Part shown: piece by piece, positions 23,971 through 36,652 of the stretch
How positions within the stretch are numbered: position 1 is the first letter of the stretch
Layout of the letters: each line of letters begins with the position of its first letter
Assembly (NCBI RefSeq): GCF_020382885.2
Contig: NC_058498.1
Span: 6,422,501-6,486,500, forward strand
Length of the DNA stretch: 64,000 nucleotides
DNA from: Scatophagus argus
Lineage: Eukaryota > Chordata > Actinopteri > Scatophagidae
Reading direction: 5' to 3'
Program-made: the position numbers and the translations under genes
The notes under the pieces: model-generated
Database searches by the model: none
What the model saw: only the letters and a program-made list of their open reading frames with translations
What the model was told of the DNA's origin: nothing

Positions 23971-24730
23971 ATGGCTGTACAACCTTTGACTGAGTGGAGC
24001 AGCGGACTCTTCAGCTGCTGTGACGACTGCAGCTCTTGTAAGATTCAACACCATAACTTTCAGTCATATCAAGTCAAGTCAAGTCAACTTTATTTGTATA
24101 GCCCATTTTTACAAGCAGTTTGTCTCAAAGGGCTTAATCTACTCAAAACTTTTTCCTCACTTAAGCGATTTATTATAACCGTACTACAGCTTAAAGTTGC
24201 TTGTCTTTCAGGCTGCTATGGTTTCTGGTGCTGCCCTTGCCTTGCCTGCACGGTTTCGGGAGCTGTTGGGGAGAACCGTTGCCTCCCTATATGTGACATA
24301 TGCAGCCCTGCCATAACAGCATCCTGTGGTTTACCTCTGTGTGTGCCTCCTGCAGCACTGGCTATACGGGTTGGCATTCGACACAGATATGGTATCAAGG
24401 TATAACACTTGTGAAACTTATATCTATAAGTTTATATATATACATATATGTTTAAATGAAAGCCTCATGTACATTTATACAAAATAACACCTGAGGAATA
24501 CAGTAAAAACAGTGTAATTTTGCTCTCCACAGGGTAGTTATTGTAAGGATATTGCGACTTCCTGTTTCTGTGAGTGGTGCTCCTGGTGTCAGATGCATCG
24601 TGAGCTGAAACATCGCAAGAAAAACTCCACTGTCGTTGTGAACATGCAGCCCGCTTCAATGATGACGGCTCCTGGAAACCCGCCTCCTGCTGGTTTTGTG
24701 AGCCAAGGTGTTGTTGTGGCTTCATACTGA
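23971..24730 (+). CDS. PLAC8/cornifelin-like protein A
   Basis: Three coding exons, 23971-24037, 24212-24399 and 24533-24730, join to 453 bases (150 residues plus stop). The middle exon encodes the cysteine-rich PLAC8 core, CCYGFWCCPCLACTVS, followed by GENRCLPICDIC and ...IRHRYGIKG; the last exon has CKDIATSCFCEWCSWCQMHRELKHRK. These are hallmarks of the PLAC8 (onzin/cornifelin) family, small Cys-rich proteins often found at membranes or in epithelia. Residues 1-23 (WSSGLFSCCDDCSSC) are also typical of fish members. The C-terminal tail is low complexity and ends VVVASY. The start codon follows a 5' UTR acceptor at about 23952 (TTTCAG). AATAAA at 24765-24770 is a close poly(A) signal. Protein B, 3.4 kb downstream, is a tandem duplicate with identical exon phases. 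The biochemical role is unknown to me. Confidence 0.9.
24062..24150. repeat. Fish interspersed repeat tail in plac8-like A intron 1
   Basis: The phrase CAAGTCAACTTTATTTGTATAGCCC followed by ACAAGCAGTTTGTCTCAAAGGGCTT is a widely dispersed fish repeat end (recognised by wording). A related phrase, TTCAATTCAGTTTATTCATGTAGTG, occurs at about 46428-46452. Confidence 0.55.
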
Positions 24731-27700
24731 GTTCTGTGGCTTCTCATTGGTCTACTGTATGCTAAATAAATAATAATTAAAAAAAAGTAAAGATTTAGCT
24801 CATGTAAATGTATCTGTGGTTTGACTATGTTGTGGTTGTTCACCGTTAAATGTGATTATTTTTCATTAGGTGTGGGTCTGAGATGAAGACTAGGGTCCTT
24901 GTTTTGACCTGATCTTTTTTCCAGTAGGAAGTTGAACTTGCTGCTGTTACTACACTGAAACTGCACTGAAAAGAGAATTTATCAGTGAAGTACAAAGATG
25001 TGTTTGCTGGATAAATTTCAGGCTTATAATGCTGCAATTACAACAACCATTTTCAGCTTCTCTCTCTTTCTAAAATCTGCTGTAATATAAAAATGGACAA
25101 TTGTTATAAACTTAAACTTAGGCTGGAGGATGGATCAGAGGGCCAAGGCCTGCATCTGTTTCCTGATCATTACTAAAGACTTACTTGACTTTTTTTTTTT
25201 ACTTTTTTCATTATTATTAATGAAATTAATGAAGGAATTATGTATGATTGAGCCATATAACATTGTGTCATCAAGATTATCCCATAGCATTGTGAAGGAT
25301 TTTTATTTCTGTAGCAATAATTGCTTGAAAATAAATTGATGGCTGGTGTCTGTGTGTTGATGAGGGTAAAATCGCAAATTTATGAATGTAAAAAAATGTA
25401 AAAATATTCAAACAATTCACAGTTATCACAGGTAATTGTGAGTGCTCTTTGGGCCGCTCTTTGTTTTAACAAGAAAAACCAGGACAGAAATTGAAATCAT
25501 TTGACCAAATAGTCCTTAAAAACAAGTAAAATTTAAGTATTAATGTTATGAGATGTTAGTAAAGTGAATCTACAGATCAAATGGGTGTCTTATTACCGGG
25601 TATTACTGTAATCAGACCAGGACGACCCCCCAAAAAAGTGACGCGAGCTGTCTAGCTAACATGTGGGCTGTAAGGTTTTTTTGTTTTGTTTTTGGTTGAG
25701 AACACACCCAAAATAATTCTACGTACTGGACAGGAGTGTCAGTCAGTCAGTCAGAGTCTGAACACTAGACCTCCGTAAATATTTATTATGTGACATTTTG
25801 GTCCCAAGTCAGTCTTCAGGCATGAAACAAATGCACAGACGCATCATAGAAGTACCTGTGCAGAAGGATTCACCTGACTGGCCACATGACTACAAACAAA
25901 TACATAAAAGAGTGAACAGCAGATATGCTCAGTGAACCCCGGGTCGTAATCCATGTCTGCTGAAGAACTGGAGGTAATAAACATTGTGTGTGTGTGTGTG
26001 TGTCGGACTCTATTTTTTCCACTGTTCAGGTCAGATCAACACAATCGACCTTTAGCCACATGTCTGTTCACGCTCATGTGGTGCTATACTTACATTTCAC
26101 TGCCCAGAAAGACACAACAGTGATGTGTTGCTGTGATATCAGAACGGGACTGGCTTCACAGATCACTGCTCTCCAGCAGAGTTCAATCACAGGTGCATCA
26201 AAGTGAAATATAAAATGGATTTTATCAATGCCTTTCTTTCACATGTGAGCTTACCTTCACACATACCAACACGTAGATCTCTTTAAGTTCAGTTTATGGA
26301 GAGGCGATGATGCTATTGTGGCACACTGGGAGAACAGTTTTGTGTTTGTAAGGCCTTGTCATCAGATGTCAGAAAGACCAAACCCTCCGAGCTTGTTGGA
26401 TGTGATCATCCTAACCTGCTGACTTTTTTTGATCAAGTTCTTGTCATCAGGAGTTGCATCCTGGGAAACACCCAGCAGCCACATCGGACCTGCCAACTCG
26501 AGTGGAATTTCCTCCACAGTGATCGTGTGTACTGTTGTAGGCTGAAACAAACTGACATTTAAAATAACAATAGAGTTGCAGGAAACAGGATAAATAAGAT
26601 AAACCACAACTGAACAATTAAATGCACCAGTGTGTCACTCAGCATGCACTGTGTGTCAGCAGTGTGTCACGGAGTCTCAGCAGGAAATGCTTACATTTCC
26701 AGCATAGCAGATTTAAGACGTCAAACCATGGATGACATGTAAGACAGCAGGAAAGAAAACTGACCCGATTGTGCTGCTGTCATCATGCAAAGCACAAGAC
26801 TTAAAAGCTCAAATTAAAGACTAAATATTACATAAAGATCATGATGAACTATATTTATTAATATGCTGTCCTGTAGTCAAACACAAAGAAAGAGGAAATG
26901 TTTCCCTCTCAAACTGATTTGCTTTGGATGTCTTTGTTCCTGTGTTTAAACCGGAAAACTCAGACTCAGGTTTTTCAGCATTGTTTATGTTTATCTGACA
27001 CAGATAAACAGGTACACAAAAAGGTGCCACTCCTAATCCAAAGTCACAGCTTCAAAGTCGCAGAGCAGGTCGCCGGTCTCGCTCAGGTAAGAACATATTT
27101 AAACTGACAATAAATTTCACATCTTCATCCTAACTTTTGATCTGAAATGCTGAAAAAAAAGTACATTTTTATATTTTTATTGCTTTTGAAGACAAAAAAA
27201 TATCTTTTCACTTTCATTGTAACTCAGCCAATTAAATTCACTCACACACACGCATACACACACATACATCTTACACACATTTTACCAGTTAGATTGTTTT
27301 AGGACTTCGCAGCTGCTTCATATTGTCATAGAGTGTTGGAGCACATCCTTAAAGAACATACTTGTATCAGAATATAATGTTGTTTTACATGTACACTGCA
27401 TCACAATATAGGCAGCATATAAATTATACACTGTTCTAATATATCATATTGTAGGTAGTCAACATTTATAGTATTTTTCTCATATGTTACCAGTTTTCAT
27501 TTTATTTTTCCTGCCAGTCTGTGTATTTTATTTACAATTTTTGTAACTGATTTGTTTGCCCATTGGCTGTCATCCTGTAGGTGTTTATGTGTTAATCAGT
27601 GCTGAAAATAAATTATGTTGATGTATTAAATCAAAACACAGTTGCCAAAAGTGAAGGCAGACTTAACAGGAAATTCATTTGTTCAAACTACCACAAAGTG

Positions 27701-28110: not shown

Positions 28111-28773
28111 ATGGCAGAACAACCCTCAGAATGGAACAGCAGCCTGTTGGACTGCTTTGAGGATGCCAGTACTTGTAAGAATCAATACCACAAATTTAAC
28201 TAAGATTATTTATTTATTTATTTATTTTTTTGACATTCTTTAGTATTGTCAAGTCACTTAAGCGTTTGACTCACTCTGCTGTGTTTTTCAGGCTGCTATG
28301 GTTTCTGGTGCTTGCCTTGCCTTGCCTGCACTGTTTCAGGAAAATTTGGAGAGAACAACTGTCTCCCATTATGTGACTTCTGCAGCTTTTCCGTGATGAC
28401 AGCCTGTGGGATGCCACTGTTTCCTCCTCCCGCTGTCTTGTCTCTAAGGGCGGCCATTCGACACAAGTATAACATCAAGGTGTGACGGATTCAAAGCTGA
28501 CGTTAGCAGAATTTCTCAACACGTTGAATTAAAGTGAGGTATTTAAAACGTTTCCTCTTTTCTTCTCCGCAGGGCTCGCTCTGCAAGGACATAGCAGTGT
28601 CCTGTTTCTGCATGTGGTGCTCCTGGTGTCAAATGCAACGCGAATTAAAATATCGCAAAGAAACTCTCACAGTCATCAACGTGCAGACAACAGTGGTCAA
28701 CATGCAGCCCCAACCAGTCATGATGATGCCAGCAAACCCGATGCCAGCAGGGGTCATGATGGCGCCTTACTGA
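28111..28773 (+). CDS. PLAC8/cornifelin-like protein B
   Basis: Coding exons 28111-28174, 28292-28479 and 28573-28773 join to 453 bases (150 residues plus stop). The middle exon has the same length (188 bases) and phase as in protein A and carries CCYGFWCLPCLACTVS, GENNCLPLCDFC and IRHKYNIK. Exon 3 carries CKDIAVSCFCMWCSWCQMQRELK. The tail is Met/Pro/Val rich and ends MMAPY, a common ending in fish PLAC8-like proteins. Compared with A, the N-terminus is one codon shorter and lacks its paired Cys (FEDAS in place of CDDCS), and one core Cys is replaced (WCLPC versus WCCPC). The left end of the 7.3-kb DNA element lies only 40 bases after the stop codon. Frame and splice sites are intact, so this copy looks functional. 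Confidence 0.9.
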
Positions 28774-28813: not shown

Positions 28814-28833
28814 TTACCCTGTAAAACCTAACA
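28814..28833 (+). repeat. Left terminal inverted repeat
   Basis: TTACCCTGTAAAACCTAACA. It matches the reverse complement of 36081-36100 at 18 of 20 positions; the differences are C/A at position 5 and A/G at position 17. It lies 40 bases after the stop of plac8-like B. An AATAAA at 28843-28848 sits just inside and may serve that gene. Confidence 0.75.
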
Positions 28834-29319
28834 GTACATCTTAATAAATAAGTAAAGTTGACGCAAACTTTGAAAAAGTCAGAGTCACTCATTTCCATTA
28901 ATTAAAGTAACTCAAAAATGAAATGTTGAAGTAGTAAGTCCGTTGCTTTGAGTGCACTTAAAGTGTTGGTGATGCAATTCCAGCTCATTCAACTAACTCA
29001 TTTACTATAGGTTATGTTTATATCATAAAAATGTAAGTTAGTGGGCTGCCATTTAGCATTTTTATTCTTTTGTTATTGTCATTTTAGTTTATAATTCTGT
29101 TTATTGTGAACAAAGAATGCATCCAAAAAAAAGCTTTGTAAGATCTGTGTTTGATGTTGATCGCACAAGAAATAGGATTAATATCAGAAAATGAATCAAG
29201 CACGATTTAGATAATTGATTAACCAAGTACATTTGCAACTAAAATAGAGACTAAAATACACCTTTGTCGTCACTTTTTCCCTTCATCAAATCAACACATT
29301 TATCAAATAAATACACTGT

Positions 29320-29530
29320 CCTCGCGAAGCGTCCAGACTCAAAGTGTTTGCGCACGTCACTGACGTCACTCCGCAACCAACGTCAGCCCGAGGAGCAAGC
29401 GCAGGTGTGTTTGCTATGTGGTTTGCTGTCGCCGACTCGCTGCTGGAGTAGCCTGGATTGTTTTGCTGGAACCGGAGTCATCGTTTATTAGCTGGCGCTG
29501 CACAAGAACATTTGTCCACCTCACAAGGTA
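29320..29530 (+). promoter_or_regulatory. CpG-rich probable promoter and 5' exon of the element
   Basis: In contrast to its AT-rich surroundings this stretch has many CpGs (CTCGCGAAGCG, GCGCACGTCAC, CCGACTCGC) and a full palindromic CRE, TGACGTCA, at about 29359-29366. A possible splice donor, CACAAG|GTAACTTTG, follows near 29527, with a candidate acceptor CCCTAAAG near 30102, just before the first pseudogene. Promoter activity is inferred. Confidence 0.5.
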
Positions 29531-32220
29531 ACTTTGTTGTATTATTTTATTGCTGCTGCGCATGATTTTTGGGGCGAGCCGGTCGTTTGTCGGGCTCTTT
29601 GAACAAGCACAGCGTGGGCGTTGAAGCATGTAACGTTATCTTATAGTTTTCAAACGTTAGCACTAGCTTGCAAACAGCATGGTTTGATAAAACAACCGTT
29701 AACCGCTATTCAGTGAGCGACTTGACTAAATTAAGTGTAAGAAGAATATACATGAAGATGTTAGCTTGTGGGCTTTCAGTGTAAGCTAGCACTAACCATG
29801 ATGTTCATTTAGCTCGCGCCTGGATTTGGCGCTTTCCGCTCGCAATGCATTATGTGCCGCGGTCGCCATTTTTCCGGGCAAAAGTGTTTTTGTTTACAAC
29901 TTTACCAGAGCAGACTTGAGAATAAATGTAATTGTTTGATGAAAATATGTGGAAATGTTAGTTTTGTGAGTTTTCTAGTTCTTTGTAAATAAAGTTGTTG
30001 AGACATTACAGACTCTACCATGATCAGTAGTCCACAGTTTTTCCCTTACCTTGCTTGTATACTATCTGCATGTGCACATTCACAACTTTTAATTCCCTAA
30101 AGGTACATTTGTCAAGAAACCATTCAGCTAGAAGAGTGGTCGGTGGTTACGGTAGTGATCTGATGATTAATCGGGCATTTCATTGCCCTGTGTGTGATTT
30201 TAAGTAGCCATTTGTTGAGAGGGAAGTGTACAGTCATATAACGGGACATTTAAGAAAAAAGGAAATGGTGCCATGGCCATTTACAGCTTGTGAGTTTAAA
30301 ACAAATGTTTACGCCACATTTAATGCCCCCAAATGCAGCGAACATCAAAATGCATCAGACTGTGATGGAGCAGTTGTAGTGCAAAATCTCCCAGATGTTT
30401 CTCAGGACGGTGACATTGAACATGATTCTGTGGAGCAACCAAATGATGATGAAGATGTCTCAGCAGCACACAGTAGCACTGAGGGATTAACAGAGCAGTT
30501 ACAGTACAATCTGACTGCCTTCTTTTTGAAAATGCAAACTATTCTCTGTGTATCACAGAGGGAAACACAGGAACTCACTGAGCACATTGATCATTTGTTT
30601 TCACTGTGAGAACCTGTTGTCATAGAAAATGTAATCAAGATACTGAAAAAACATGACTGTACTTTCACAGACACATTTGTTTTGCATAAATCTATGACCT
30701 CTGAAGGACCACTGTCAACAGCTAGGAGGAGAAAATCTTATTTTGGGGAAAAATTTCCATATGTTAAGCCTGTAGAATACCTCATTGAGTCATCACAGCA
30801 CATACATGTATGTATCTATTCTCACATCTCCTGTTGCAATCACTTGATGTTCTTGAGAAAGTCAAAGAAACAGCATCACATAAGCCTGGACAGTATATGT
30901 GACATTGTGATGGCTCTCACTATAAGGGAAATCAACATCTTTCAGATGAGGGTCAGAAATTTTCCATAATACTATATGTTGATGATTTTGAAATTGCAAA
31001 CCCTTTAGGAACATTAAAAAAAATCACAAAGTATGTGCAGTCTACTGGACTTTAGCTAACATATCAGTTAAGTATCGTTCAGTCCTCCATTCTACTCAGT
31101 TGGCCCTTTTGTGCAACTCAAAAGATGTACGACAGTTTGGATATGAGAAGGTTTTTACACCTGTCTAGAAGTACCTAAAAACTCTTGAAGAAGTGGGTGT
31201 CTACATTGAAGCGTTTGGTAACTGTCTCAAAGGCACAGCCTATTCTGTTATGGCTGGTAATCTTGCTGCCTGTGGGCTAGCTGGTTTCAATGAGAGTTTC
31301 AGGTCTACATATTTCTGCAGATTTTTCCTTGCCATTCTGACAGAAATCAGATGCAGTAACTGGAAGTTTTGAGATGAGAACCAAAGACTTCCATGATACT
31401 CTTGTTCGAGAGCAGACCAATGACAGTGAAGATGATTGTGGTGTAAAACAGAGTTGTGTTCTCTCTGACCATCTCTTCTATTTCCATCCCATCACAGGAT
31501 TTCCTCCTGATGTTCTGCATGACCTGTTTGAAGGTGTGGTCCCCATGGAGTTGGCGCACTGTTTGAAAGGTTTGATTGCAAAGAAATATTTCACTTTGGA
31601 GGAGCTGAATAAAGCAGTCCAGTGTTTTCCCTACCAGCATTCTGATAAGGTTGACCGCACTCACCCAGTTCCTCTAAATTTTGCCAGTCAAGGAACAATT
31701 GTTGGGAATGGGCATGAGAACCATACTCATAATTTCACAGATAATACCATCCAGTACATGGCCTGCAAGCTTTCAGATCACATGCAACTCCTTCAGAAAG
31801 TCTTCCCCAACTTAAGACTGTGACCAAAACATCATTATATTGAACACTGTCTTTGTAACATAAAGTGCTTTGGTCCTCTGGTGCATCGCTGGACATTGAG
31901 ATTTGAGGAAAGTTTTTAAAAATATAGTTCGTGCCACTCATAACTACAAAAATGTACTGAAAACATTGACAGAGAGACATCAAAACATTTTGTCTGTCAT
32001 CACAAATATTTTTCAAGCCACCTGTACAAACTTCAAATGTGGAGTCGGCCTTTATTTAATCATTGCGTATTGATACACGTTCACAGACACGTTCAGTGTC
32101 GAGCATTACAGACAGCAGCTGTGTTTATGGCACAAAACAGGCAACCATTCAAGGCACAACTTTTATGGTGGGTGTTTGTATGTAGTGGGACACATGCTGC
32201 CTTGCCCATGTTCAAAGAGA

Positions 32221-32490
32221 TTAGGGGCAGTCGTGGATCAGCGGTTAGGGTGTCGGACCCGTAACCGGTGGACCGAACCGCTGGTTTGAGTCCCCGTCCC
32301 GGTGTCCATGGCTGAGGTACCCTTGAGCAAGGTACCTAACCCCCACTGCTCCCCGGGCGCTGCACGCGGTCGCCCACTGCCCCGGGTTTGCTGTGTGTGT
32401 GTGCACGTCACTTGGGTGGGTTAAATGCAGAGAACAAATTTCGTTGGAGTGAGTTCCCTTCAATGACAAAATATGTCACTTTAATCTTTA
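32221..32490 (+). mobile_element. tRNA-derived SINE, copy 1
   Basis: Starts GGGGCAGTCGTGGATCAGCG with RNA polymerase III A-box-like (TGGATCAGCGGTTAGGG) and B-box-like (GGTTTGAGTCCC) words. It ends CAATGACAAAATATGTCACTTTAATCTT. It interrupts the element's first pseudogene right after the GTHAALPMFKEI block. Confidence 0.8.
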
Positions 32491-32565
32491 ATCTTAAACT
32501 TTAAACATATTGCTCATTGGAAGTGATATCTTCCTATTCCTAAGAGACCTGATATGTTGAGCATT

Positions 32566-32690
32566 TGCGGTCACGGTGGTGCAGTGGTTAGCACTGTCGC
32601 CTCATAGCAAGAGGGTTCCAGGTTCGAATCCCGGTCTGGGCCCTTCTATGTGGAATTTGCATGTTCTCCCTGTGCCTGCGTGGGTTTTAG
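32566..32690 (+). mobile_element. tRNA-derived SINE of a second family, 3'-truncated
   Basis: GGTGGTGCAGTGGTTAGCAC (A box) and GGTTCGAATCCC (B box), then GGGCCCTTCTATGTGGAATTTGCATGTTCTCC, the head of a common fish SINE. It breaks off at CTGCGTGGGTTTT, where the next SINE begins, so the next SINE probably inserted into it. Confidence 0.75.
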
Positions 32691-32955
32691 GGGCAGTCGT
32701 GGATCAGCGGTTAGGGTGTCGGACCCGTAACCGGTGGATCGCTGGTTTGATTCCCCGTACCGGTGTCCATGGCTGAGGTACCCTTGAGCAAGGTACCTAA
32801 CCCCCACTGCTCCCCGGGCGCTGCATGCGGTCTCCCACTGCCCCGGGTTTGCTGTGTGTGTGTGCACGTCACTTGGGTGGGTTAAATGCAGAGCACAAAT
32901 TTTGTTGGAGTGAGTTCCCTCCAATGACAAAATATGTCACTTTCATCTTCTTTCA
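32691..32955 (+). mobile_element. tRNA-derived SINE, copy 2
   Basis: Near-identical to 32221-32490 (same head, same CCCCGGGCGCTGCA middle, same ATGACAAAATATGTCACTTT tail), differing by a few substitutions and by the absence of a short duplicated piece in the tRNA part. The high similarity points to recent insertion of both copies. Confidence 0.8.
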
Positions 32956-33070
32956 TATGAGCTAACAGGCCAATGAGTGAAATCTCTGAGTCAGCTAACT
33001 GATCAAATGCCACAGATTGTCTGCAAAGTTTCAGGCAGGCTAATTCTGACAACTAAACATTTCATTTCAG

Positions 33071-35695
33071 TGTCTGACTAAAGGAGCAAGCAGCCATCCC
33101 CAGCCTGTTCTCTCCCAGTGAACCAGAGGAGACTGAAGATCATTTGGAGCCTGCTATGAATACTAGCCTCCTTCCACACTCTTGACAAAGTAATGAAAGG
33201 TAAAGCCTTTTGTCTACTATGAGCCATGTTATATAGGAGCATGTTCTCTGTGTGCATCTTATAATCAGAGAATGATTAGCTGGACTACATGTGTGTCTAA
33301 CTTGGTGCACACCAGTGAGAAACAAACATGTATTCAGTGTGTGTATTGATATGTGTTAGTTGTTAAGCAGCTAGTGGAAAGTTTGTTTTTTTTCGTTTTG
33401 TCTTTGTGTTTCAGGTTTCCTTATCACAGTGTAAATGGAAGCAACTGATGTTCTCAAACTAAGGGTGGTCCTTGATGATGTCAATACTGAGAGGCTTATT
33501 TTGCCCTCTTGTTCTGAAACTGTAAAAGCCCTCATATGTGAAGTGAAGGATAAGCTGAATCTGGACTATAACTTTCGCCTTCAGTTTCAAGATCCAGAAT
33601 TTGCCAATGCCCTGTGCAATTTGATTAACATGGAGGACCTACCATCTAAGGCCACTATTACGATAGTTAGTCATTGAGTTCAACTAGCACAGATGACACT
33701 ATGCTGTTGTCTGATAACACAGTATCACCAGAGTGACTTTGCCGATGTCCAGCCATCTTTATTGTTCCAGATTTCTCACATGAGGTTGAGCATGTTGTAA
33801 GAGAGGGCAACTCTGCCTACGTGAGAGAGGGAAAAACTGCCATGTTGACCAGGGACCAAAAGCACAACATACTGGATGTAATGACTGCTGAGTTGTACAA
33901 ACATTAAGCATATCCCAGTACCAAACAGATTGGATTGGCTGCAGAGGATCTGGTGAACAAGCACCCCAGTCTGAAAGAAAATTGTTCCAAAAGAGGCTAC
34001 GAGGATCAAACTGAGCAGGGCAGGCATAAAGGATGTGGCTGTGAATGCAGGAAAGCGTAACAGGACCAATCCAGAGGGTGCAGCATCCAGGGCCAGTATC
34101 AGAAGACCCAGGAGAGGGGAAGTCAACTTCCTTCCCAGCTAGCCCCATGGAGAAACTAAGCAGACCCTTGAGACCTAAAGGTGGAGCAGTTCAAGAGTAC
34201 ATCGATGGAAAGAGACATGATATTCATCCATCCACATATGCAACATACGTTTGCTCTCAGACGTGAAGAAATTGTGACTTAAGCTCCTCCAGTTGCTGAA
34301 CTTATGGACAGATGATCTGCACTCTTTTCTGAAGCACAAGTTAGTATAAAGTTAAAATTTATGCTTAAAAATATGCATAAACCATCAAAGTAGTCATTAG
34401 ATTTGAGTAGTTAGTAGAGTAGTCTTGAGTAATTTGGTATGTCTGTTTGTCTGAAAAGCCCAGTGTTACAATATCACATGGCTTTTGTTTTTCATGCAGC
34501 TCTATAGTGAAATCCACAGGATCACAAATCAAAATCTGCCATCTGCTTTCTTTTCTGCAGTCGACAAGTACACACCCCATCTGCTAAAGCTGTACAAAAA
34601 GAGGAGGAGTGGCATCTTTGGTCAGAAGAGCGATTATGATGGCTTTTGAGGAACAGGTAAATTTTCTTTTTTGTTATTATTTTACACATTACGCTGGTGT
34701 TGAATGTGAAGAGTGAACACTAACATCCCTTATGTATGCACTGTCTTGCAATAGGACAAAAACAACATCTGTGCAGCTCGAACGGCAGCCTTGGCCAGCC
34801 TACCTCTGTACTTGAAGGAGGATTCTTCAGAGATCTTCAGAACTTGCAAGGTATTTGTGAAATGTGGTTGACATTAGGTCTCATCACACACATTAATTTC
34901 AACAGAATTTCAAACGTTGCAAATTAACTGGGAATGTGCTAGTTTTACAGTCTTGGTACTTAATTCTGATTTGTAGTCCTCTAATTTTTGGAGATAAATT
35001 AGGGTCATAAATTTCATTCATTTGAAAAAGACATTTGAAACTCAAAGTTCAAGTTTTGATAATGGAAATTTGAAAAATACAAGAATTTATTTTTAAAAAA
35101 AACTAAATTATTTTATTTGGAATAAATTATTTGACCCTAATTTAGCTCCATACTAATTAACCAAAACATTGAACATTGATATATGAGCGTCATAGGAAGT
35201 TATTGAATTTCTGGTCAGTCGTGTGTGTGCTCTGGCATGTGTGTGGATGCAAGGGAATATTTTGGGATGAATGCACATCATGTTGGTGAAAATAAGAAAC
35301 GATCAACAATCGTCAGCCTTTTAATAAGCGTCATTATTTGTAAAATTAGACGTACACATCTTTTTCTCCTTTATTGTTTTATTCAGGATGACTTGGAAGC
35401 AAACCAGGAAGGAGCAGTGGTTCTGGTGGCCGTGGTCAACGAGGAGGAAGCGTCTGAAGTTCCCTTAGAAACACAGCACGTGTCGGTTGTTCTCGAGGAT
35501 CAGGTTGTCATGTCACACAGATCGTGGACTGATGCACCTGTTATATTGTTTGGACTGGTCTATGCCCTCCATTTGAGGTACCCTGAGAAGTTAAGTGGCT
35601 TCTTTGGATTCATCCAGGTTGTCCTCTTAGATCTGAATGATGGGAGAAAGCAGCTCAAACATACATTGCAGGCATTGAGAAATGCGCTAGAATGA
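33071..35695 (+). pseudogene. SAMD3-like (fish multigene family) pseudogene
   Basis: A probable non-coding exon ends at a GTAAAG donor (33199/33200). After an acceptor at 33415, ATG 33435 opens an 80-codon frame with a PB1/ubiquitin-like start (LKLRVVLDD...FRLQFQDPEFANALCNL) that stops at 33677. Beyond it, homology to the long fish family annotated as 'sterile alpha motif domain-containing protein 3-like' continues through stops and shifts: VPDFSHEVEHVVREGNSAY, DQKHNILDVMTAELYKH then TAA (about 33904-33906), NPEGAASRASIRRPRRGEVNF, FALRREEIV, RTAALASLPLYLKED (34769-34813), and a last exon from about 35388 (SWTDAPVILFGLVYALHLRYPE...) ending at TGA 35693-35695. No SAM domain is visible in this copy. 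At least three premature stops make it non-functional as read. Its function in the family is not known to me. Confidence 0.7.
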
Positions 35696-35790
35696 ATGGG
35701 ATTTGGGAACTAGAATGTTGTTATTTATTGTAGTGAAAGAAAAACACTTTCTGTAACTTCAGAGGCAGCATTTGTGTAAAGAAGAGCCAT

Positions 35791-36031
35791 TTAAGTTAAT
35801 GTGACTTAATTCTGATCAATTAAATTCACACATTTTAAATTAGTTTGGAGATGTTACATGCAAGTGTGATATACTTGTTAGTTTTAAGTTCAGGTAACTT
35901 GATTGGAACAGTAACTGTAACTTAATTTACCCAAGCTACCTTTACAATGATTACTTAAGTTAACAATTCAACTACAAGATTATTTGATTTAACTTAATTA
36001 ACTTAAATCAGATTTAAGTTAATAAACTTAA
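35791..36031. repeat. Cluster of AACTTAA/TTAAGTT motifs inside the right end
   Basis: Exact 7-mers at 35791, 35884, 35919, 35955, 35991, 36000, 36014 and 36025, in both orientations, within 241 bases directly inside the right terminal repeat. Subterminal repeat clusters of this sort are transposase or accessory-protein binding sites in CACTA-type elements (family knowledge). That role here is inferred. Confidence 0.7.
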
Positions 36032-36080
36032 ATGGTTCAAATGCAATCTGTTTCCTCAAATGGTTTGAGTTCAACTAACT

Positions 36081-36100
36081 TGTCAGGTTTTACAGTGTAA
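36081..36100 (-). repeat. Right terminal inverted repeat
   Basis: TGTCAGGTTTTACAGTGTAA, whose reverse complement begins TTACACTGTAAAACC and pairs with 28814-28833. TA follows directly at 36101-36102, mirroring TA at 28812-28813. Confidence 0.75.
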
Positions 36101-36102
36101 TA

Positions 36103-36652
36103 CTTAACCTTTACTTGTTTTAAAGGACTATTAGCTCAAATGATTTTAATTTCTGTTCTGGGTGTTATGGTGAACAGAATATTAAATTTGAATTAAGTTT
36201 GTCTTGATATTTTTGTTAATAAGCTCCAAATAAATTCAGTCAGGTCGAAGCAAATCTGGATCACTCTCAGGTGACTGGTGAGTGTGTTCAGACAAAACAA
36301 ATTCGTCTCTTCCTTTCAATAAAGAAGTTTCGACATCCAAAGTAATGCGAAGCTGAACGAGCTTTTGCTCATCGTTTCTGTTGGTGAGCAACGCTGAGAC
36401 GCGTAACGCCACTCAGGGACATTCTGCTACGATTAGGAAGAGACTCACCAGTCTTATAAAAGTCAGGGACAAAGTCAGAAGGCTTTGTTGTCATTTTGTT
36501 ATGTTTACTTACATCACTTGTTTTTACCCTTTTTGCTCTTCTTGTCATTAGAAAGTGTCTCTTGTGAGCAGTGTGTCCTGCTCTCGGCCACGGTCTCGTT
36601 TCAAGAACAGAGAATTTTGTGTGTTAAAAGTCAGAGTTGAAGGGCAGTATTT
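36103..36652. other. Intergenic DNA downstream of ttc4
   Basis: About 550 bases between the element and the ttc4 stop codon. It should contain the ttc4 3' UTR on the minus strand. No other gene is seen. Confidence 0.5.

Follow-up and report, generated by a model that had tools for sequence, protein, structure and literature searches.

A decayed two-gene, CMC-like DNA transposon and its relatives in the genome of Scatophagus argus, with a second gene that may encode a transposition partner

In plant En/Spm elements, one promoter serves both genes, and TnpA binds subterminal repeats. Tc1/mariner elements strictly duplicate TA, and TA is also the target duplication of Mirage. The CMCT clade, considered here together with ESTA, includes EnSpm, Mirage, Chapaev, Transib, Plavaka, and Lanisha; RAG1 has the same motifs, and the elements from which ESTA is known are fungal and carry a TET/JBP gene. 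The CMCT clade is defined by C(2)C and H(3-4)H motifs between the second D and the last E of the transposase, 5'-CA..TG-3' ends, and a target duplication of 2-5 bp (PMC12730594). A second protein of plant CACTA elements is reported to support excision and transposition in specific families (PMC4158355). Here, a stretch of 64,000 nucleotides from Scatophagus argus (contig NC_058498.1, positions 6,422,501 to 6,486,500; hereafter the window) was found to contain an element with pseudogenes of a transposase and of a second protein (gene 2). Our best reading is a two-protein CMC-like transposon, organized like plant En/Spm with a different-looking partner protein, which mostly duplicates TA. We consider it probable (about 0.85) that a cut-and-paste DNA transposon of the CMC/RAG1-like clade left a dead copy in the window, and that gene 2 encodes a partner protein needed for transposition.

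One genome was searched throughout (570.7 Mb, 48 contigs, labelled C plus a number). The features that define the element, including its terminal inverted repeats (TIRs), are given below in window positions.

28817-36097, + strand, whole element, decayed (7,281 bp; TIRs, TA duplication relative to a paralogous empty site, second copy on C18)
28815-28816, no strand, left target duplication TA (empty-site comparison, flank table)
36098-36099, no strand, right target duplication TA (empty-site comparison, flank table)
28817-28833, + strand, 5' TIR CCCTGTAAAACCTAACA (inverted-repeat match; the related starts L003, L005, and L006 read CACTATAAAACCTAACA)
36081-36097, - strand, 3' TIR, reverse complement CACTGTAAAACCTGACA (exact 17-mer at four places in the genome)
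25466-25567, - strand, paralogous insertion site without the element, or empty site (flank matches on both sides of the junction)
29950-31995, + strand, transposase pseudogene with N-terminal C2H2-like fingers and a DDE-type core (E 3.9e-106 in a tblastn search with the intact transposase of family A)
33435-35692, + strand, gene 2 pseudogene (tblastn with family A gene 2, E 2.1e-31; C-terminal part, E 4.6e-14)
33435-33677, + strand, N-terminal part of gene 2
33671-34339, + strand, central part of gene 2
within 35387-35692, + strand, C-terminal exon of gene 2

A preliminary description of this locus had proposed 20-bp inverted repeats with TA directly outside, enclosing a transposase-like and a SAMD3-like pseudogene on the plus strand. 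Positions 28814-28833 and the reverse complement of 36081-36100 were identical at 18 of 20 positions (91% over 22 with flanks), which bore out the repeat, and both pseudogenes were present between the ends, each of them broken. The ends themselves had to be moved inward, since the 20-mers take in the duplicated TA and the outer TA is target sequence; after this correction, the TIRs are 17 bp long and match at 15 of 17 positions. The TIR pair by itself is close to chance, and the rest of the genome decides: allowing up to 3 mismatches, the 17-mer had two sites in the 64-kb window, compared with a mean of 0.54 in shuffled sequence and two or more sites in 15 of 100 shuffles. A chance TIR was the first explanation considered, as the repeat alone was weak, and was excluded by the empty site and other copies.

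The right flank (36098-36174) matched the minus strand at 25542-25466 with 84% identity (83% over 82 nt in a second comparison), and the left flank extended this match in register, 27 bp beyond the junction, with TA alone duplicated. The left-flank score was equalled at 8 of 20,000 random places, self-matches included. The empty paralogue reads ...CAT-TA-ATACTT, and the occupied site has TA on each side; this comparison therefore delimits the element as 28817-36097 with a 2-bp duplication. Because of this empty paralogue within the window and a second near-full copy on C18, the insertion is real. The empty site is an inverted fragment lying between two tandem PLAC8-like genes (24190-24739 and 28270-28773), whose proteins are 61% identical in the last exon part; the fragment corresponds to the sequence 3' of the second gene.

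A search with the first 587 bases of the element gave a single close relative, which lies on C18 (84%), along with six starts that are more distant, and its 3' end matched the same C18 copy (in pieces) and one further end on C2. The C18 copy (C18:18966732-18976926, approximately 10.2 kb) shares the 3' end of the window element and carries the two genes in the order seen there; it has a truncated 5' TIR and is flanked by TT on both sides. The four places with the exact 3' TIR 17-mer were the window, C18, C2:405228, and C22:17919025. The C2 and C22 sites are each paired with an inverted one-mismatch copy, giving spans of 4.0 and 5.6 kb, respectively. The C22 span holds gene 2 matches on the expected strand (17920523-17922728) and no transposase match; none of the listed protein matches falls inside the C2 span. 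At up to 2 mismatches, the 17-mer occurred at 445 sites, little above the 355 of the control.

The six element starts L003-L008 (on C8, C16, and C11), three reading CACTATAAAACCTAACA and three CACTATCAAACCTAAC, share the outside flank TTTCCTGACCTGTTT (L007 as far as printed), and they apparently represent one insertion copied as part of a larger repeat.

Further families with both genes were delimited in the same genome. Borders of families A to D were obtained by comparing near-identical copies at different loci; for family F, the 3' end was set by comparison and the 5' end by the TIR match of one copy. Family A is represented by copies on C4 and C12 (6.65 kb), family B by copies on C13 and C15 (8.89 kb), family C by copies on C8 and C18 (approximately 10 kb, of which 1,839 bases were unread; the C8 copy has an extra piece of approximately 730 bp), and family D by copies on C12 and C1 (7.98 kb). 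Family F was delimited on C21 (7.31 kb), with the 3' end compared with C11 and the 5' end taken from the TIR match of the single C21 copy. Both genes are also present in family E (C2), whose ends were not read. The two copies within each of A, B, C, D, and F were 98-100% identical over the stretches compared, which indicates that these elements moved recently. An exact 2-bp duplication was present in all 13 copies with both ends read, the window included (9 TA, 3 CA, and 1 TT); the TT-flanked copy has a truncated 5' TIR, and a third duplicated base matched in none of the 13. Since CA and TT copies occur, TA represents the duplicated target and not a fixed end of the element. A TCTCCC repeat outside the TA of the C4 copy was set aside, as it was absent from the 10-bp flanks of the other 12 copies.

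The proposal that the two genes belong to one TIR-bounded transposon family thus holds: both recur inside near-identical elements, and in A, B, and D they lie between TIRs with 2-bp target duplications. The locus belongs to a real two-gene transposon, and its partner gene matched no known accessory protein in the searches made.

In the window, the two main blocks of the transposase pseudogene hold 5 and 6 stops, in addition to frame breaks, and gene 2 contains 7 stops in its central block and an open C-terminal exon; we read the window copy as dead. Transposase frames of the families are approximately 810-940 aa long, with identities of 42-55% among A to E and of 29-33% between F and the rest. 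Invariant Cys/His spacing at the N-terminus of A to E fits four C2H2-like fingers, and C2H2 proteins were the best, weak PDB matches of the transposase profile (E 0.007). The profile, built from five transposases, gave 41 PDB matches at E up to 10, none of them RAG1 or Transib. Pfam gave no match, Transposase_21 included, for the family A transposase (P0001, the one scanned), and a search of the genome with Transposase_21 (PF02992) returned a single match (C15:22573426-22573737, 35.2 bits, one stop). The signature D, D, C(2)C, H(3)H, E was retained in all six families. The transposase accordingly bears the CMC/RAG1-clade signature and would work like a CMC transposase; by the features tested, it is not an En/Spm transposase.

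All six families have the C(2)C/H(3-4)H arrangement of the CMCT clade, and ends and duplication length are those of the clade, with the window's own 5' end reading CC. The families share with En/Spm the CAC-type ends, two open reading frames within TIRs (A, B, and D), and a DDE transposase accompanied by a second protein, but differ in the 2-bp instead of 3-bp duplication, the lack of a Transposase_21 match, and ends that are not CACTA. The CMC/EnSpm assignment suggested in the preliminary description therefore stands for the CMC-type ends and the En/Spm-like layout, and fails for En/Spm in the strict sense. Likewise, its CACTG termini next to TA were recovered in part: ends read CACTG, CACTC, or CACAG (CCCTG at the window's 5' end), and TA is the usual duplication beside CA and TT.

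Next to ESTA and Mirage, which duplicate TA, the 13 copies here gave 9 TA, 3 CA, and 1 TT. The CA and TT copies do not fit the strict TA duplication of Tc1/mariner, and the transposases here are approximately 810-940 aa long. SmTRC1-type animal CACTA elements resemble the present ones in a 2-bp duplication (seen there in 7 of 14 copies, by comparison with empty sites), a D-x-x-H motif, and CxxC, but box A ends in L-G there and in E-G here, and Transposase_21 is reported there and had no match here (PMC1636069). Two insect relatives have TIRs that start with CCC (PMC1636069). The zebrafish EnSpm-N6_DR is likewise from a fish and filed as EnSpm, but is a 346-bp non-autonomous element (PMC3485254). 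No description of the transposase/gene 2 pairing was found among the titles and abstract starts searched, a scope outside which Repbase reports fall; the families may be catalogued there as EnSpm.

To measure linkage, a gene 2 match within 10 kb of a transposase locus was scored and compared with random placements (1,000 runs for the 66-locus count). In families A to E, gene 2 follows the transposase and is encoded on its strand. Before F-type queries were included, 31 of 66 transposase loci had a same-strand gene 2 downstream and 2 had one on the other strand, compared with a random mean of 0.144 and a maximum of 2. With all queries, a same-strand gene 2 was detected at 43 of 77 transposase loci (31 downstream and 12 upstream; random mean 0.193, maximum 3).

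The 12 upstream cases mainly represent the family F lineage, so that gene order is not fixed. The gene 2 homologue of family F, just upstream of its transposase, was detected among 167 frames with the central (E 3.5e-5) and C-terminal (E 2.7e-6) profiles, which scored 17.2 and 20.9 bits, compared with 10.9 and 11.2 for the best of 200 shuffled elements. F-type queries recovered the upstream arrangement in 4 of 4 F copies, and 12 of 20 F-type gene 2 loci had a transposase match directly downstream. With gene 2 downstream in A to E and upstream in the F lineage, the pairing has outlived a change of gene order. Further, trees of the two proteins from A to E gave the same unrooted topology, with C+E and B+D grouped (support 0.99-1.00 and 0.86-0.96), an agreement expected by chance in 1 of 15 cases.

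Both genes have open frames in A, B, C, D, and E. Gene 2 is kept open in these families despite only 25-41% identity in its N-terminal part, which implies that selection acts on the protein. The C11 and C16 versions of gene 2 differed by 1 silent and 2 replacement codons among 341, a number that does not permit a test for selection. What we read as a splice-acceptor-like stretch precedes the first long coding exon of gene 2 in A, B, and D. 'SAMD3-like' is the label that the preliminary description gave to gene 2, and a relation to vertebrate SAMD3 is putative. No SAM domain was matched by Pfam in the first long exon of family A gene 2 (P0002) at E up to 1, and no PB1 domain was matched at the gene 2 N-terminus. 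Single-sequence AlphaFold2 predicted the order strand-strand-helix-strand-helix-strand for the N-terminus (pLDDT 53.8; best Foldseek E 0.35), a model too poor for a fold call. A resemblance of the central part to the FOXO forkhead was weak (best E 0.95) and was not used. Many gene 2 matches covered the C-terminal part only, had open frames, and lay away from any transposase match (C5:4357941, C5:13134869, and others); these may be further mobile families or host genes.

Derivatives that lack the transposase core were found in two lineages. In family C, an open gene 2 without a transposase match was detected at six loci (C3, C11, C12, C16, C20, and C21), compared with two loci with one. The two loci that were read, C11:6066400 (L090) and C16:16022600 (L091), are gene-2-only, 5.26-kb internal-deletion elements with intact ends and CA duplications; they are 98.6% identical to each other, and the C11 copy retains approximately 60 transposase residues. 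Within the F lineage, gene 2 is open at C2:12577526 and C11:1784386, where transposase matches are limited to the first 142 and the last approximately 160-170 residues, and at C21:15646395 the last transposase part alone was matched. The loss of the transposase core with retention of gene 2 in two lineages suggests that gene 2 is of value to the element that carries it.

Three further features of the window element are as follows.

29117-30016, + strand, CpG-rich promoter-like region (observed/expected CpG ratio 0.94-1.14 in three 300-bp bins; window background 0.39)
29361-29368, + strand, CRE TGACGTCA in the CpG-rich region
35798-36097, no strand, 3' subterminal region with 7 copies of AACTTAA on either strand (reached by 0 of 300 dinucleotide shuffles)

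An upstream CpG/CRE region had also been proposed. Its CpG-rich part was recovered (ratio approximately 1 against 0.39) and recurs elsewhere: in A, B, C, D, and F, the first 0.8 kb had ratios of 0.74-1.08, and the window family (W) had approximately 1.03 from 0.4 to 1.2 kb. The window has the CRE, but none was found in families A, B, D, and F, in the part of C that was read (all but 1,839 bases), or in the C-derived deletion copy. Ratios in other bins were lower, mostly 0.1-0.4, with moderate values (0.6-0.8) in W (the inserted repeats and the region near 6.4 kb), C (around 2 kb), and A (last short bin). No second CpG stretch of the initial level was found before the other gene in W, A, B, C, D, or F, and the simplest inference is that a single promoter would serve the two genes. 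Crowded heptamers were found in the last 300 bp of W (AACTTAA, 7 copies), C (AAGTAAA, 5), and F (GTGTTAA, 6), counts reached by 0-2 of 300 shuffles; at the 5' ends, no family showed significant heptamer crowding.

In our reading, the N-terminal fingers would bind the element ends, and the transposase core would excise and reinsert the element. The CpG-rich region would act as one promoter and serve both genes by splicing. The gene 2 protein would be a partner needed for transposition, most likely a DNA-binding or complex-assembling factor at the repeats near the 3' end, an action modelled on that of TnpA in En/Spm.

Several results weigh against such a partnership. Gene 2 also exists alone: 75 of 121 gene 2 loci had no transposase match within 10 kb and 3 had one on the opposite strand only (68 of 101 and 2 before F-type queries), borders being unread for most. 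Conversely, the other 34 of the 77 transposase loci had an opposite-strand gene 2 only (2 loci) or none within 10 kb (32 loci). Among 18 long intact transposase rows (no stop, frame of at least 800 aa, match of at least 470 aa), 14 had gene 2 alongside, and 4 distant ones had none detected with the queries used (C7:21635087, C16:1249601, C16:1319301, and C9:4957910). The correlation between pairwise identities of the two proteins was weak (r 0.27, a value reached in 24 of 120 permutations) and failed as proof of co-evolution, although the trees agree. Moreover, no domain was recognized in gene 2 by Pfam, Foldseek (on the predicted model), or the other searches made, and subterminal repeats were weak in A (29 of 300 shuffles) and not found in B and D. 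The unpaired loci, the four intact transposases, and the weak correlation would suit gene 2 as a passenger, or as a host gene captured by the element and dispensable for its movement. We judge this quite unlikely, because gene 2 accompanies transposases that are 29-55% identical, the A to E gene trees share one topology, and the pair occurs in both gene orders with open frames; internal-deletion copies also keep gene 2 open, where one would expect decay or variation of a mere passenger.

Gene 2 might instead regulate the element from outside the cutting complex, as a repressor of its own transposition or as an anti-silencing factor for the CpG-rich promoter. The CpG-rich start with a CpG-depleted body in all six delimited families (W, A to D, and F), read as an unmethylated promoter, points this way, as do the copies with an open gene 2 and no transposase core (six loci in family C, two of them read, and three in the F lineage), which an element-encoded regulator could favor. 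Such a role appears rather doubtful, given that no domain supports repressor or anti-silencing activity and that, by analogy, the second protein of some plant CACTA families, reported to support excision and transposition (PMC4158355), favors a direct role. Finally, two separate pseudogenes lying inside a chance inverted repeat would agree with a TIR pair near the chance level, but this account is practically eliminated: intact families A, B, and D already refute it, and the empty site with its TA duplication, the 2-bp duplications in 13 of 13 copies, and linkage at 43 of 77 loci against 0.19 expected stand against it as well.

We therefore retain the reading of gene 2 as a partner needed for transposition, for which the sequence finding is that gene 2 lies inside the same element in most intact relatives. 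As a tentative extension, with the odds against it, the families could represent an undescribed vertebrate two-protein system, in which a CMC-like transposase acts with an obligate partner whose genes carry the annotation 'SAMD3-like' in fish. Such genes, perhaps together with the shared central domain of vertebrate SAMD3 itself, would then be transposon proteins or domesticated descendants, and transposase-less copies would have spread because the partner prefers its own element. If this is true, a poorly explained multi-copy gene class would be transposon cargo, for which annotators could look for a neighboring DDE transposase, CACTG-type ends, and 2-bp duplications. The system would also be a parallel in animals to the two-protein organization of En/Spm, and its near-identical intact copies allow the role of the partner to be tested directly. 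Should vertebrate SAMD3 have the central domain by descent, a further host gene would derive from a transposon accessory gene.

Two repeats were also inserted in the window element, both between the transposase and gene 2 pseudogenes.

32221-32488, + strand, SINE-like repeat, copy 1 (95% identical to copy 2)
32687-32949, + strand, SINE-like repeat, copy 2 (95% identical to copy 1)

ARAGORN found no tRNA in 32000-33100, and the tRNA-like appearance of these repeats is our own reading. The stretch between the two copies (approximately 32569-32686) resembles another repeat, nested in the dead transposon.

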